A stretch of DNA of 64,000 nucleotides, taken from positions 124,001 through 188,000 of the forward strand of contig NZ_JADPJI010000004.1 of NCBI RefSeq assembly GCF_023073355.1, given 5' to 3'. This DNA is from Bradyrhizobium sp. 199. GTDB lineage: Bacteria > Pseudomonadota > Alphaproteobacteria > Rhizobiales > Xanthobacteraceae. Under the pieces are notes generated by a model, which had not been told where the DNA came from, ran no database searches, and worked only from the letters and a program-made list of their open reading frames with translations. Of this stretch, positions 33,744 through 41,649 are shown piece by piece; positions within the stretch are counted from its first letter, which is position 1, and every line of letters begins with the position of its first letter. A program made the translations under genes and the position numbers.

Positions 33744-34514
33744 TCAGCTGCGCCGTTCGGCGCCATCGAGCTCCACGATCCAGCCGTCACCGGTGCGGCT
33801 CTGGTGCAGCTGAGGCTTGATATTCCAATATTTAGCGGCTTCGGTCAATTCAGCCTCTACATCTTGACCCTTTGGAAACAGCGCCTTTGCGCCGTGGCGC
33901 ATCAGCGGCTCCGCAAAGCCGATGAGTTGATGTAGCGGAGCCAGCGCACGGGCGGTGACGCAATCGACAGGGCCGGTGATTCTATCCACATTATCCCCGA
34001 TCTCAGCGAGATGTACGATTCCCGGCGATGTGGTGACGCGAATCGCTTCGCGCAGAAACGCCGCCTTCTTGGCAATCCGCTCGACGAGATGGACGCTCGC
34101 GCCCGGCGTCCCGGCCATGGCGCAGGCCAGCACGACCCCGGGGAAGCCGCCCCCGCTGCCGAGATCGGCCCAGCGTTTGGCGGACGGCGCAAGATCGGCG
34201 AGTTGAAGCGAGTCGGCAATGTGCCGGGTCCAGAGCTGCGGCAGAGTCGAGAGCGCGACCAGATTGGTCTTGGCCTGCCACTCCCGCAGCAGCGCGATGT
34301 AGCGGTCGAGCCGGGCTTCCGTTTCACGTGAAACGGGCGCGAGCCGCAGCGCCTCGCGCTTGTCGGCGGCGATGATGGAATCGAGCGCCGGATCGTTGGC
34401 GCTGGCCTTGTCGAACTTGGGTCTGGCTGGCGCCGGTTCAGCTCGAGCTGCGCCTTCGCCTGTTCCTTGTCCCCGCGATAGCCGCCTATCGCCGCCTGGT
34501 CCGCGCTGTTTCAC
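33744..34514 (-). CDS. rsmG: 16S rRNA (guanine527-N7)-methyltransferase RsmG
   Basis: A 256-residue methyltransferase with the SAM motif 'RWADLGSGGGFPGVVLACAMAG' and 'VHLVERIAKKAAFLREAIR'. The only usable start is GTG at 34514, ten bases after the mnmG stop and inside a parS sequence. This yields an N-terminal Arg/Gly/Ala-rich extension of about 45 residues before the conserved domain. It methylates G527 of 16S rRNA. It lies in the same frame as mnmG just after the TAG stop. Confidence 0.92.
   Translation of the reverse strand: MKQRGPGGDRRLSRGQGTGEGAARAEPAPARPKFDKASANDPALDSIIAADKREALRLAPVSRETEARLDRYIALLREWQAKTNLVALSTLPQLWTRHIADSLQLADLAPSAKRWADLGSGGGFPGVVLACAMAGTPGASVHLVERIAKKAAFLREAIRVTTSPGIVHLAEIGDNVDRITGPVDCVTARALAPLHQLIGFAEPLMRHGAKALFPKGQDVEAELTEAAKYWNIKPQLHQSRTGDGWIVELDGAERRS
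34320..34335. promoter_or_regulatory. parS site inside rsmG
   Basis: CGTTTCACGTGAAACG contains the full 14-base parS core GTTTCACGTGAAAC. It is read as 'VSRET' in the RsmG protein. Confidence 0.9.
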
Positions 34515-34522
34515 GTGAAACG
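34507..34522. promoter_or_regulatory. parS site over the rsmG start codon
   Basis: TGTTTCACGTGAAACG is a 15/16 match to the parS consensus. On the minus strand its central GTG is the rsmG start codon, so ParB binding here could influence rsmG expression. Confidence 0.92.
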
Positions 34523-34523
34523 C

Positions 34524-36404
34524 CTATGCGATTGCCTTGGAGATCTTCCGTGCCTCGCGCCGGAGATAGGCCGCGAGGATACCCAGCGCAGCCGGCGTCA
34601 TGCCGTCGATCCGGCCAGCCTGGCCGACCGTGAACGGCCGCGCCTTCTCCAGCTTGGCTCGCACCTCATTGGAGAGGCCGGGGACGAGGCTGTAATCGAC
34701 CTCAGACAGCACCATCCCCTCGTCGCGCCGGAAGGCCTCGACGTCGGCACTCTGGCGCTCAAGGTAGACGTCGTATTTGGCATCGATCTCAAGGTGGGAC
34801 GCAATGACGGGATCGATGCGCGCCAGCTCGGGCCAGATCGCTCGAACCTGGCTCAAGCCGATCTCCGGATACGCCATCAGTTCGAAGGCCGACCGGCGCT
34901 GGCCGTCCCGATTCAGGGACAGTCCGTGCTTGATCGCCTCGTTGGGCGTGATCGTGAGCGACTTCGACAGCGCCCTGGCCGCATTCAGGGCATCCATCTT
35001 GGCGCGATGATGCTGGGTCCGGGCATTGCCGACGCAACCGAGCGCAATCCCCTTCTCGGTCAGACGCTGATCCGCATTGTCTGCCCGCAGCGTGAGCCGA
35101 TACTCGGCCCGCGACGTGAACATCCGGTAGGGCTCGCTGATCCCGCGGGTGACGAGGTCGTCGATCATCACGCCGAGATAGCCGTCGGCCCGATCGAACA
35201 CCGTCAGCGCCGCGCCGCTGGCGGAGAGCGCGGCGTTGAGACCGGCCACGATGCCCTGCCCGGCGGCTTCCTCGTATCCGGTGGTGCCGTTGATCTGCCC
35301 GGCCAGGAACAGACCGCGCAGACGCCTGGTCTGCAGGGTCGGATCAAGTTCGCGGGGATCGATATGGTCGTACTCGATCGCATAGCCCGGACGGACCATC
35401 TTGACCCGTTCCAGGCCAGGAATGCTGGCGAGGATCGCGAGCTGAACCTCCTCAGGGAGCGAAGTCGAGATACCGTTAGGATAGACCGTGCTGTCGTCGA
35501 GCCCTTCCGGCTCCAGGAAGATCTGGTGACCGTCGCGATCGCCAAAGCGGACGATCTTGTCCTCGATGGACGGGCAATAGCGCGGTCCGGAGCTCTTGAT
35601 CTGGCCGGAGTACATCGGAGAGCGATGCACATTGGCGCGGATCACCTCGTGGGTGGCGGACGTGGTCCGGGTGATGCCGCACTGGATCTGCGGAGTCGTG
35701 ATCCGCTCGGTCATGACCGAGAATGGCTCCGGCGGCTCGTCTCCGGGCTGCATCTCGACCGCGGACCAGTCGATCGTGGTGCCATCCAGACGCGGCGGAG
35801 TGCCGGTCTTGAGCCGCCCAAGGGTGAAGCCGGCACGCTCAAAGGAGGCGGAAAGACCCATCGCGGGGGCCTCACCGACGCGGCCGGCGGGCCAATTCTT
35901 CTCGCCAAGATGAATGAGACCGCGCAGAAAGGTGCCGGTGGTGACGACCACAGCCCCTGCCCGAAGCTCACGGCCGTTCGCCAGGCGTAGGCCCGTAACC
36001 CGGCCCTCGACCACGATCAGCTCGTCGGCCTCGCCTTCGATCACGGAAAGACCGCCGGTCTCCCGGATCGCGGCCTGCATGGCAGCGGCATAGAGTTTTC
36101 GGTCGGCCTGAGCCCGAGGACCGCGAACTGCGGGACCCTTGCGGCGATTGAGGACACGAAACTGGATGCCGCCGGCATCGCCCACACGGCCCATTAGACC
36201 ATCGAGCGCATCGACTTCCCGGACCAGATGACCCTTGCCCAGTCCGCCAATGGCAGGATTGCAGGACATCGCGCCGACGGTGGCGAAACGGTGCGTCACC
36301 AGAGCGGTCGTTGCGCCCATCCGGGCAGCAGCAGCCGCGGCTTCACAGCCCGCGTGGCCGCCGCCAATCACGATGACGTCGAAGCTCTCTCGCTCTGTTC
36401 GCAT
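34524..36404 (-). CDS. mnmG: tRNA uridine-5-carboxymethylaminomethyl synthesis protein MnmG (GidA)
   Basis: A 626-residue FAD protein with '[31 protein letters not shown]' at the start, '[26 protein letters not shown]', '[19 protein letters not shown]' and the C-terminal helical domain ending '[21 protein letters not shown]'. It works with MnmE to modify U34 of certain tRNAs. The ATG at 36404 begins the conserved domain; the frame continues upstream to 36536 but through a parS site, and that part is not conserved in kind. Confidence 0.97.
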
Positions 36405-36453
36405 GGGGCGGACTTCTAACTCAGAGGCAGAAAAGCGGAAAGCGGAAACTGGG

Positions 36454-36469
36454 CGTTTCACGTGAAACC
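36454..36469. promoter_or_regulatory. parS site
   Basis: CGTTTCACGTGAAACC carries the full 14-base core, 50 bases upstream of the mnmG start. Confidence 0.92.
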
Positions 36470-36547
36470 AAGGTGGCTCCCGCGCCCCCGAATGTCGCTT
36501 TCGCGAAAACAACCCCATGCACAGTAGCAAAGGCATGAGAGCCTTGC

Positions 36548-36563
36548 TGTTTCACGTGAAACA
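36548..36563. promoter_or_regulatory. parS site, perfect consensus
   Basis: TGTTTCACGTGAAACA is the exact 16-base parS consensus known from many bacteria. Confidence 0.97.
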
Positions 36564-36648
36564 AATGCAGCAAGTGGACTGTCTTATCCCGCTATCGACG
36601 ATCACCGTTCGCTTGTTCCGGGGCAATAAAGCGGATGTTTCCAGCGGC

Positions 36649-36664
36649 CTTTTCACGTGAAGCT
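36649..36664. promoter_or_regulatory. Degenerate parS-like site
   Basis: TTTTCACGTGAAGC at 36650-36663 matches 12 of the 14 core positions. It abuts the next parS directly, so it may be a duplicated, decayed site or a weak second binding site. Confidence 0.6.
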
Positions 36665-36680
36665 CGTTTCACGTGAAACA
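36665..36680. promoter_or_regulatory. parS site
   Basis: CGTTTCACGTGAAACA matches 15 of 16 consensus bases. It lies 42 bases downstream of the mnmE stop codon. Confidence 0.93.
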
Positions 36681-39916: not shown

Positions 39917-40351
39917 CTAGAACGGCTTCACGATCACCATGATGACAATAAAAATCATGAGGACGGTCGGTACCTCATTGATAATCCGATAGAATTTCTG
40001 AGACCGCGGGCGCCGGTCGGCAGCGAAATCCTTCAGCCAGCGGGAAAAAAAGCCGTGGACCGCCGACATCGCCAGGACCAGTGCCAGTTTTACGTGCAGC
40101 CAGCCGAACGAGAACCAGTGGCCGGACCAGGCCAGATACAGCCCGGCGAGCCAGGTGACGATCATGGCAGGGTTGATGATCGCCTTGAAGAGCCGGCGTT
40201 CCATCACCTTGAACGTTTCCGACTGCTTCGAGCCGATCTCGGCGTCGGAATGATAGACGAACAGCCGCGGCAGATAGAGCATGCCCGCCATCCAGGAGAT
40301 GACGGCGATCACATGCAGCGCCTTGATCCAGAGATAGACGTCTTCGAACAT
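39917..40351 (-). CDS. hemJ: Protoporphyrinogen oxidase HemJ
   Basis: A 144-residue inner-membrane protein with four helices. It has the HemJ signature 'YLWIKALHVIAVISWMAGMLYLPRLFVYH' (conserved His13) and 'GWLHVKLALVLAMSAVHG'. It oxidises protoporphyrinogen IX to protoporphyrin IX in haem synthesis. It lies upstream of rho on the same strand, and in this region many Alphaproteobacteria keep hem genes. Its start borders the putative origin. Confidence 0.93.
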   Translation of the reverse strand: MFEDVYLWIKALHVIAVISWMAGMLYLPRLFVYHSDAEIGSKQSETFKVMERRLFKAIINPAMIVTWLAGLYLAWSGHWFSFGWLHVKLALVLAMSAVHGFFSRWLKDFAADRRPRSQKFYRIINEVPTVLMIFIVIMVIVKPF

Positions 40352-40809
40352 TTTCGCGGCCCGGGTTTCTGTCCAGCGAAAGGAACTGGGGATAGTAAGA
40401 ACTCGTTAAGGTCTTACCGTGCACACATATCCGTCCGAAGCGCCTTCCTCAAACCTAGAATCTTAGATTCTTAAGGTTTGAGTCTATGTGACCGTGGATT
40501 GGACTCATGAAATTCTGTCCGCGAGTTCACGCGCGCTTGTTCACACCCATCAACATATCCCCGATCGCCCTTGGCGCCTTGCGATAAGTCGGCCAGCTTC
40601 AAAGGCTTGCGCCTTTTTGTCGGCAGCTTATCAAAGGGGTTGTCCGCGCAATCCCGTTTCCATCGCGGCCTGCCGGCGAACTTGTTCAGATGGGCAGCGG
40701 TGTGAAGAAAATTGGCACTTGTCCCGCCCCTGGTGTCGCGCAACCCTTTCCGAGGGGTTAAGCTCCACAGAAATCCACAATTCACACCGCCTTCATACAA
40801 AGAGTTTTT
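40352..40809. other. Candidate chromosomal replication origin (oriC)
   Basis: A 458-base gene-free gap between hemJ (minus) and the PPSR gene (plus). Caulobacter's origin lies directly upstream of its PPSR gene (CC_0001), and the genes on the PPSR side follow the same order here. The gap contains a 35-base palindrome, four GANTC sites in 49 bases, and DnaA-box-like 9-mers matching 7 of 9 positions at 40537 (TTGTTCACA), 40701 (minus strand, TTCTTCACA) and 40771 (AAATCCACA). There is no perfect TTATCCACA. Weak boxes are known for Caulobacter-type origins. The parAB genes and parS sites are 4-8 kb away. Confidence 0.6.
40448..40482. promoter_or_regulatory. 35-base palindrome with CcrM (GANTC) sites in the candidate origin
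   Basis: The outer arms CTCAAACCT / AGGTTTGAG and inner arms AGAATC / GATTCT give 15 paired bases each side, with a TTA centre and a 2-base bulge. GAATC (40458) and GATTC (40466) sit symmetrically in the arms; GAGTC (40480) and GACTC (40502) follow. Confidence 0.75.
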
Positions 40810-41649
40810 GTGCCAACCTCGAACAATTATTTCCATCTGCACCTCGTCTCCGACTCCACCGGTGAGACGCTGATCACCGTGGCACGGGCGGTTGCGGCCC
40901 AATACGCCAACGTGACGCCGGTCGAGCACGTCTATCCGCTGGTGCGCAGCCAGAAGCAGCTCGATCGGGTGCTCGACGAGATCGAGGAAGCGCCCGGGAT
41001 CGTGCTGTTCACGCTGCTCGAGAAGGATCTGGTCGCTAGGCTCGAGGACAAGTGCAAGGGGATCAACGTTCCGAGCCTGTCGATCATCGGTCCGGTGATG
41101 CAGCTATTCGAAGCCTATCTCGGGGCTGCGACCACGGGCCGCGTCGGCGCTCAGCACGTGCTCAACGCGGAATATTTCAAGCGCATCGACGCGCTGAACT
41201 ACACGATGATCCACGACGACGGCCAGCACGTCGAAGGTCTCGACGATGCCGACGTCGTCCTGGTCGGCGTGTCCCGCACCTCGAAAACGCCGACGTCGAT
41301 TTATCTCGCCAATCGCGGCATCCGCACCGCCAACGTGCCCTTGGTTCCCGGCATTCCGGTGCCCTCGCAATTGGAGACGCTGACGCGGCCGCTGGTCGTC
41401 AGCCTGCACGCGACGCCGGAACGCCTGATCCAGATCCGCCAGAACCGCCTGCTTTCGATGGGAAGCGACTCGGGCAACGACACCTATACCGATAGGCAGT
41501 CGGTCACTGAGGAGGTCGCGTTTGCGCGCAAGCTCAGCGCCAAGCATGATTGGCCGCTACTGGACGTCACGCGTCGCTCGATCGAGGAAACCGCCGCGGC
41601 GATCATGAAGCTTTACAGCGATCGCCAGCGCAACCGGCCTTCGGGATAG
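40810..41649 (+). CDS. Pyruvate,phosphate dikinase / PEP synthase regulatory protein (PPSR, DUF299)
   Basis: A 279-residue protein. The N-terminal '[23 protein letters not shown]' and the nucleotide loop '[21 protein letters not shown]' (~152-172) are diagnostic. The family is a combined kinase and phosphorylase that switches PEP synthase or pyruvate,phosphate dikinase by ADP-dependent phosphorylation. The start is GTG at 40810. It is the first gene to the right of the putative origin, as in Caulobacter. Confidence 0.96.

Follow-up and report, generated by a model that had tools for sequence, protein, structure and literature searches.

Gene context and identity of the gap

The window analysed here, a stretch of 64 kb (64,000 nucleotides) from Bradyrhizobium sp. 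199, contains an intergenic gap of 458 bp between hemJ and the gene for a PPSR kinase/pyrophosphorylase, the latter being the 'RP001/COG1806' flank of the Caulobacter Cori. Further to the left, beyond hemJ, lie rho, mnmE and mnmG, and mnmG is surrounded by a cluster of parS sites. The main features are:

34320-36680, no strand: cluster of five parS sites with at most 2 mismatches (0.01 expected)
39917-40351, minus strand: hemJ (UPF0093, PF03653), left flank of the gap
40352-40809, no strand: hemJ-PPSR gap, well-supported oriC by its flanks, the parS cluster nearby, a dnaA gene located elsewhere and a polarity change in the relative G005
40810-41649, plus strand: PPSR kinase/pyrophosphorylase (DUF299/COG1806, PF03618), right flank of the gap

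When at most one mismatch was allowed, all parS sites of the whole genome were found inside the 34320-36680 cluster, at a distance of 4-6 kb from the gap. In the relative G005 the dnaA gene maps to position 379 and PPSR to 233 kb, hence dnaA lies away from the gap; near PPSR the GC skew of this relative changes from negative to positive and the polarity of GGGNAGGG switches, as judged at coarse resolution from sampled stretches. Four DnaA-box-like 9-mers with at most 2 mismatches are present in the gap versus 0.40 per 458-nt tile, all of them weak (at least 2 mismatches), and the corresponding gaps of relatives carry 4.9 such sites on average.

The published layout of the Caulobacter origin is hemE-Cori-COG1806 (PMC1914354). 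The Bradyrhizobium gap likewise adjoins PPSR/COG1806 and a heme gene, which is hemJ here and hemE (PF01208) in the sister genera, where the core sequence of the gap is unchanged. It shares with Cori of Caulobacter crescentus the COG1806 right flank, an AT-rich region of low stability, a surplus of weak DnaA-box-like sites and several GANTC motifs, and in the sister genera also the hemE left flank. It differs in its own left flank, hemJ, in the array of three to four GANTC sites inside the predicted DNA unwinding element (DUE) itself, and in the lack of a perfect CtrA site or an IHF consensus. We found no IHF consensus within 40352-40809 and no perfect CtrA site (TTAA-N7-TTAA) in the gap, where a single CtrA-like sequence with one mismatch is located at 40395; a Caulobacter-style control by CtrA and IHF was thus rejected. 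Because CtrA sites are reported to be missing from other alphaproteobacterial origins (PMC4468827), their absence and that of IHF sites do not exclude an oriC, and the assignment of the 458-bp gap as the chromosomal origin is well supported by its genomic context.

The genome paper on B. diazoefficiens set the origin by a 'DnaA box' match to TGTTTCACG (PMC4840208). As this sequence is a parS half site, that assignment may have hit parS. Among named genomes, almost identical loci belong to Bradyrhizobium. A Bradyrhizobium-like PPSR locus with 94% identity was also found in a record titled Frankia sp. RB7, which is probably mislabelled or contaminated.

Predicted unwinding element and DnaA boxes

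Conservation along the gap was compared by column entropy in the sequences of 87 relatives. The features concerned are:

40454-40512, no strand: block with the lowest column entropy among the 87 sequences, hence the best conserved part of the gap; predicted DUE with adjoining box
40493-40501, minus strand: DnaA-box-like CAATCCACG in an R1-like position beside the predicted DUE, 3 mismatches to TTATCCACA with the ATCCAC core intact
40537-40545, plus strand: DnaA-box-like TTGTTCACA, 2 mismatches, conserved columns
40701-40709, minus strand: DnaA-box-like TTCTTCACA, 2 mismatches, conserved columns
40761-40779, plus strand: DnaA-box-like pair AGCTCCACA / AAATCCACA in the second most conserved block

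The least stable 40-mer of the entire 64 kb, calculated from nearest-neighbour energies, starts at 40448. The most conserved block, whose core occurs once in the genome, terminates in CGTGGATTG, which reads CAATCCACG on the minus strand, and the GTG at 40494-40496 within this box is invariant or nearly so in the 87 sequences. The second most conserved block (40759-40780) is made up of the pair of DnaA-like boxes. DUEs are recognised by low stability beside a DnaA box, and because low stability adjoins a DnaA-box-like site here, we read the region 40448-40512 as the DUE of the Bradyrhizobium chromosomal oriC, a prediction which is very probably correct.

With regard to the basal unwinding system (BUS) model of a DnaA box plus DnaA-trios (PMC8287927) the locus shows a box, a short spacer and a DUE in that order, but differs in that the window has no uninterrupted run of at least three NAN triplets at the permitted spacer distance behind the box. 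The run found has a length of 1, as in 56 of 67 loci of the genus, and a DnaA-trio reading was rejected on these grounds. In origins of other alphaproteobacterial orders (L132, L156 and L159) an AT-rich stretch is separated from TGTGGATAA-like boxes by DnaA-trio-like runs of the TNG/CAA type, the runs in class relatives such as L132 being of the CAA/CTA type.

GANTC sites and palindrome

A preliminary description of the window had pointed to four GANTC sites in 49 bases and to a 35-base palindrome with 15 paired bases, both of which are present as described. Changes per column were counted on a tree with 83 tips, built from about 580 nt of flanking coding sequence; the rows are related, and the counts are to be read as estimates. 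The features are:

40448-40482, no strand: 35-base palindrome of 15 bp with a 2-nt bulge, clade-restricted (fold z -6.7)
40458-40462, no strand: GANTC site 1, GAATC, intact in 33 of 87 sequences; changes per column 5, 3, 12 (N), 4, 4
40466-40470, no strand: GANTC site 2, GATTC (GAATC in others), intact in 84 of 87; changes 1, 1, 11 (N), 2, 2
40480-40484, no strand: GANTC site 3, GAGTC, intact in 79 of 87; changes 0, 0, 1, 0, 3
40502-40506, no strand: GANTC site 4, GACTC, immediately following the DnaA-box-like site and intact in 65 of the 87 sequences; changes 10, 8, 6, 7, 4

The four sites lie between 40458 and 40506, and nowhere else in the window do four GANTC fall within 150 bases. The argument from chance density held in part: the cluster exists, but GANTC is depleted in the window as a whole, with 155 sites (1 per 413 bases) versus 349 in dinucleotide shuffles, and when 155 sites are placed at random, four fall within 49 bases somewhere in the 64 kb with p of about 0.03. 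Clustering is thus only modestly unusual for the window alone and was not used by itself as an argument; it is a hint, and conservation makes the case.

Three GANTC within 49 bases occur at 31 distinct places of the 6.1-Mb genome. One of these groups straddles the start codon of ccrM (L269 654-683, G000:C6:577091-577120; ORF 673-1803). Upstream of gcrA (L270 2070-2282; ORF 1477-1989 on the minus strand) five or six GANTC occur within about 300 bases, three of these within 27 bases (G000:C5:404938-404964). The densest group encountered comprises six sites in 61 bases (L276 1491-1551, G000:C1:664290-664350); it is seemingly intergenic, and no obvious cell-cycle gene was recognised beside it. Among the further triple clusters (L273-L292) 16 of 20 appear to be intergenic when genes are guessed from codon bias, with neighbours including CTP synthase, an FlgE/F/G-type flagellar hook protein, a porin and a GGDEF/EAL protein.

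When folded as DNA, the palindrome CTCAAACCTAGAATCTTAGATTCTTAAGGTTTGAG forms a hairpin whose stem of 15 bp contains a 2-nt bulge and is closed by a 3-nt loop (-11.3 kcal/mol, z = -6.7). The proposal that it is bound by a dimeric initiator-control protein could draw on this strong dyad, on the hairpin (z -4.4) that the B. japonicum group has in its common form and on a right arm that is almost invariant, but it did not survive the comparison of relatives. The left arm varies freely (on average 7.1 changes per column versus 1.2 in the right arm), being perfect in 2 and present with one mismatch in 38 of 80 named loci, a single compensatory double change was found over 9 pairs and 87 sequences, and representative sequences of other clades form no hairpin (z = -0.2). 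We therefore regard a dimer-bound palindrome as most improbable and reject the palindrome as a conserved element; judged from the sequences compared, it is a lineage-specific by-product. The alignment of the orthologous gap thus separates the two parts of the preliminary description, the GANTC sites being retained (site 2 intact in 84 of 87) and the palindrome not.

The gap-wide mean is 12 changes per column on the tree. The N of sites 1 and 2 drifts at close to this rate, with at least 11 changes in the N column of site 2, while GA and TC are retained. On the tree site 4 shows 6 presence changes and was lost repeatedly. The positions of the GANTC sites are kept across Bradyrhizobium and into the sister genera. 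In an 80-nt zone around the box we counted 3.40 GANTC in the genus versus 0.48 in shuffles; beyond the genus, where the score that locates the box rewards a following GACTC and counts may be inflated by up to one, the values were 2.38 versus 0.47 in the remaining genera of the family, 1.09 versus 0.37 in other families of the order and 0.61 versus 0.30 in other orders of the class. The enrichment weakens outside the family even though a RAMA/CcrM-type match is present in almost every genome there (a RAMA domain was found in 73 of the 78 genomes compared); to judge by the class-wide sample, most alphaproteobacteria of other families carry zero to two GANTC in this zone.

Because the changes at site 2 fall on the N (11, versus 1, 1, 2 and 2 at the other positions), we consider it likely that the GANTC sites in the predicted DUE are kept by selection as CcrM sites. 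A different reader, a protein recognising GAWTC, could impose the same constraint at site 2. Alternatively, the block would be an ordinary DUE, conserved for melting and binding by DnaA, in which the GANTC letters serve as single-strand contacts of DnaA and methylation is irrelevant. The equally conserved TTA and GGTTTGAGT letters around the sites, the fixed N of site 3 (GAGTC) and the fact that CcrM loss disturbs initiation neither in Caulobacter nor at ori1 of Agrobacterium fit this explanation; drift restricted to the N at site 2, and likewise at site 1, does not, nor does the finding that sister genera regain GANTC at shifted positions although other letters differ. We consider an ordinary DUE rather unlikely and selection for the CcrM motif the better reading.

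GANTC clusters also occur at ccrM and gcrA of the same genome, as triples at the start of the former and upstream of the latter, and most other clusters appear intergenic, so that the sites in the gap could belong to a GcrA/CcrM-regulated promoter of hemJ (or PPSR). With such promoters the locus has in common the GANTC cluster and the presence of CcrM and GcrA, but it differs in having no fixed neighbouring gene and in its context of DnaA boxes and low stability. The core persists where hemE takes the place of hemJ on the left, so the sites are not tied to the promoter of one fixed gene; no sigma70-like promoter match was found in the gap, and the strongest conservation of the gap coincides with the lowest stability of the window, beside DnaA boxes. 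The hemE/hemJ switch and the lack of a sigma70-like match weaken a promoter function, which we hold to be improbable.

Possible role of CcrM methylation in origin opening

The genome encodes GcrA and a CcrM-like protein of 376 aa with a RAMA domain, an orphan adenine methylase whose sites are concentrated in oriC. A SeqA-type binder of hemimethylated DNA is absent, with no PF03925 match in the genome (the same profile does match in the E. coli control). In B. diazoefficiens 99.8% of GANTC sites are methylated (PMC4840208). In relatives the timing of CcrM is under cell-cycle control, and in Ensifer GANTC methylation follows a cell-cycle pattern (PMC8725594). About 80% of the cells in a mixed Caulobacter population carry hemimethylated sites near the origin, and initiation is normal in a ccrM deletion (PMC3973325); A. 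tumefaciens ori1 does not respond to depletion or excess of CcrM (PMC11514494).

The DUE of the E. coli oriC has 13-mer repeats with Dam GATC sites at their head. In the E. coli sequence used, which is present in 5,374 of 5,426 E. coli genomes and adjoins mnmG, GATC is found at -57, -41, -26, -13 and +13 of box R1; in Bradyrhizobium GANTC is found at -35, -27, -13 and +9 of the R1-like box. Both origins thus carry methylation motifs in AT-rich repeats and flanking an R1-like box at near-equal offsets, and mnmG is near both. In contrast, E. coli relies on GATC, Dam and SeqA, whereas GANTC and CcrM occur here without SeqA, and the published CcrM tests at other alphaproteobacterial origins were negative. 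The parallel is best described as an architectural analogy between the two elements.

On the reading that we favour on balance, the element is a DUE with selected GANTC sites whose methylation would modulate opening or binding. DnaA on the weak box CAATCCACG (40493-40501) and on boxes further to the right would melt the AT-rich stretch at about 40448-40490, with three to four CcrM sites built into the melted stretch and directly behind the box. Fully methylated before firing, these sites would be hemimethylated after initiation and remain in that state up to the renewed synthesis of CcrM late in the cell cycle. In this way DUE methylation could modulate how easily DnaA opens the element, or which other factors bind, and an origin that has just fired would thereby differ from one ready to fire, as a CcrM counterpart, without SeqA, of the Dam GATC sites in the E. 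coli oriC. The step from methylation to opening or binding is put forward tentatively. Several observations count against a control role: initiation in Caulobacter and at A. tumefaciens ori1 tolerates a lack of CcrM, site 4 was lost repeatedly, site 1 is intact in 33 of the 87 sequences and SeqA is missing.

The idea that origin state is coupled to methylation, raised in the preliminary description, is compatible with these results. Of that description the reading as origin DNA (by context) and the weight given to the GANTC sites hold up, the positions of these sites being kept and CcrM and GcrA being encoded, while the dimer-bound palindrome has to be given up. The long retention of the CcrM sites suggests that methylation may mark or tune origin opening. 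A stronger version, in which CcrM methylation of GANTC-headed DUE repeats would license or time melting in Bradyrhizobium and its sister genera as a SeqA-independent checkpoint, separate in origin from the Dam sites of the E. coli oriC and in the same architectural place, appears doubtful. The negative CcrM tests come from Caulobacter and Agrobacterium; in the sample compared, the GANTC array is densest in the family of Bradyrhizobium.

Whether cell-cycle DNA methylation acts directly on alphaproteobacterial origins is a long-standing question, as GANTC motifs occur in Cori, yet removal of CcrM leaves initiation undisturbed. The presence of several GANTC motifs in Cori is already noted in a passage of PMC3973325, which cites its reference 66. 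What is added here by sequence comparison is an array of three to four sites inside the predicted DUE, together with its conservation and a putative function. The assigned origin and predicted DUE are supplied for a genus whose published origin rested on a DnaA-box match resembling half a parS site. For one large plant-associated family the locus thereby provides an evolutionary argument for selected GANTC sites in the DUE, and it pinpoints the exact bases.
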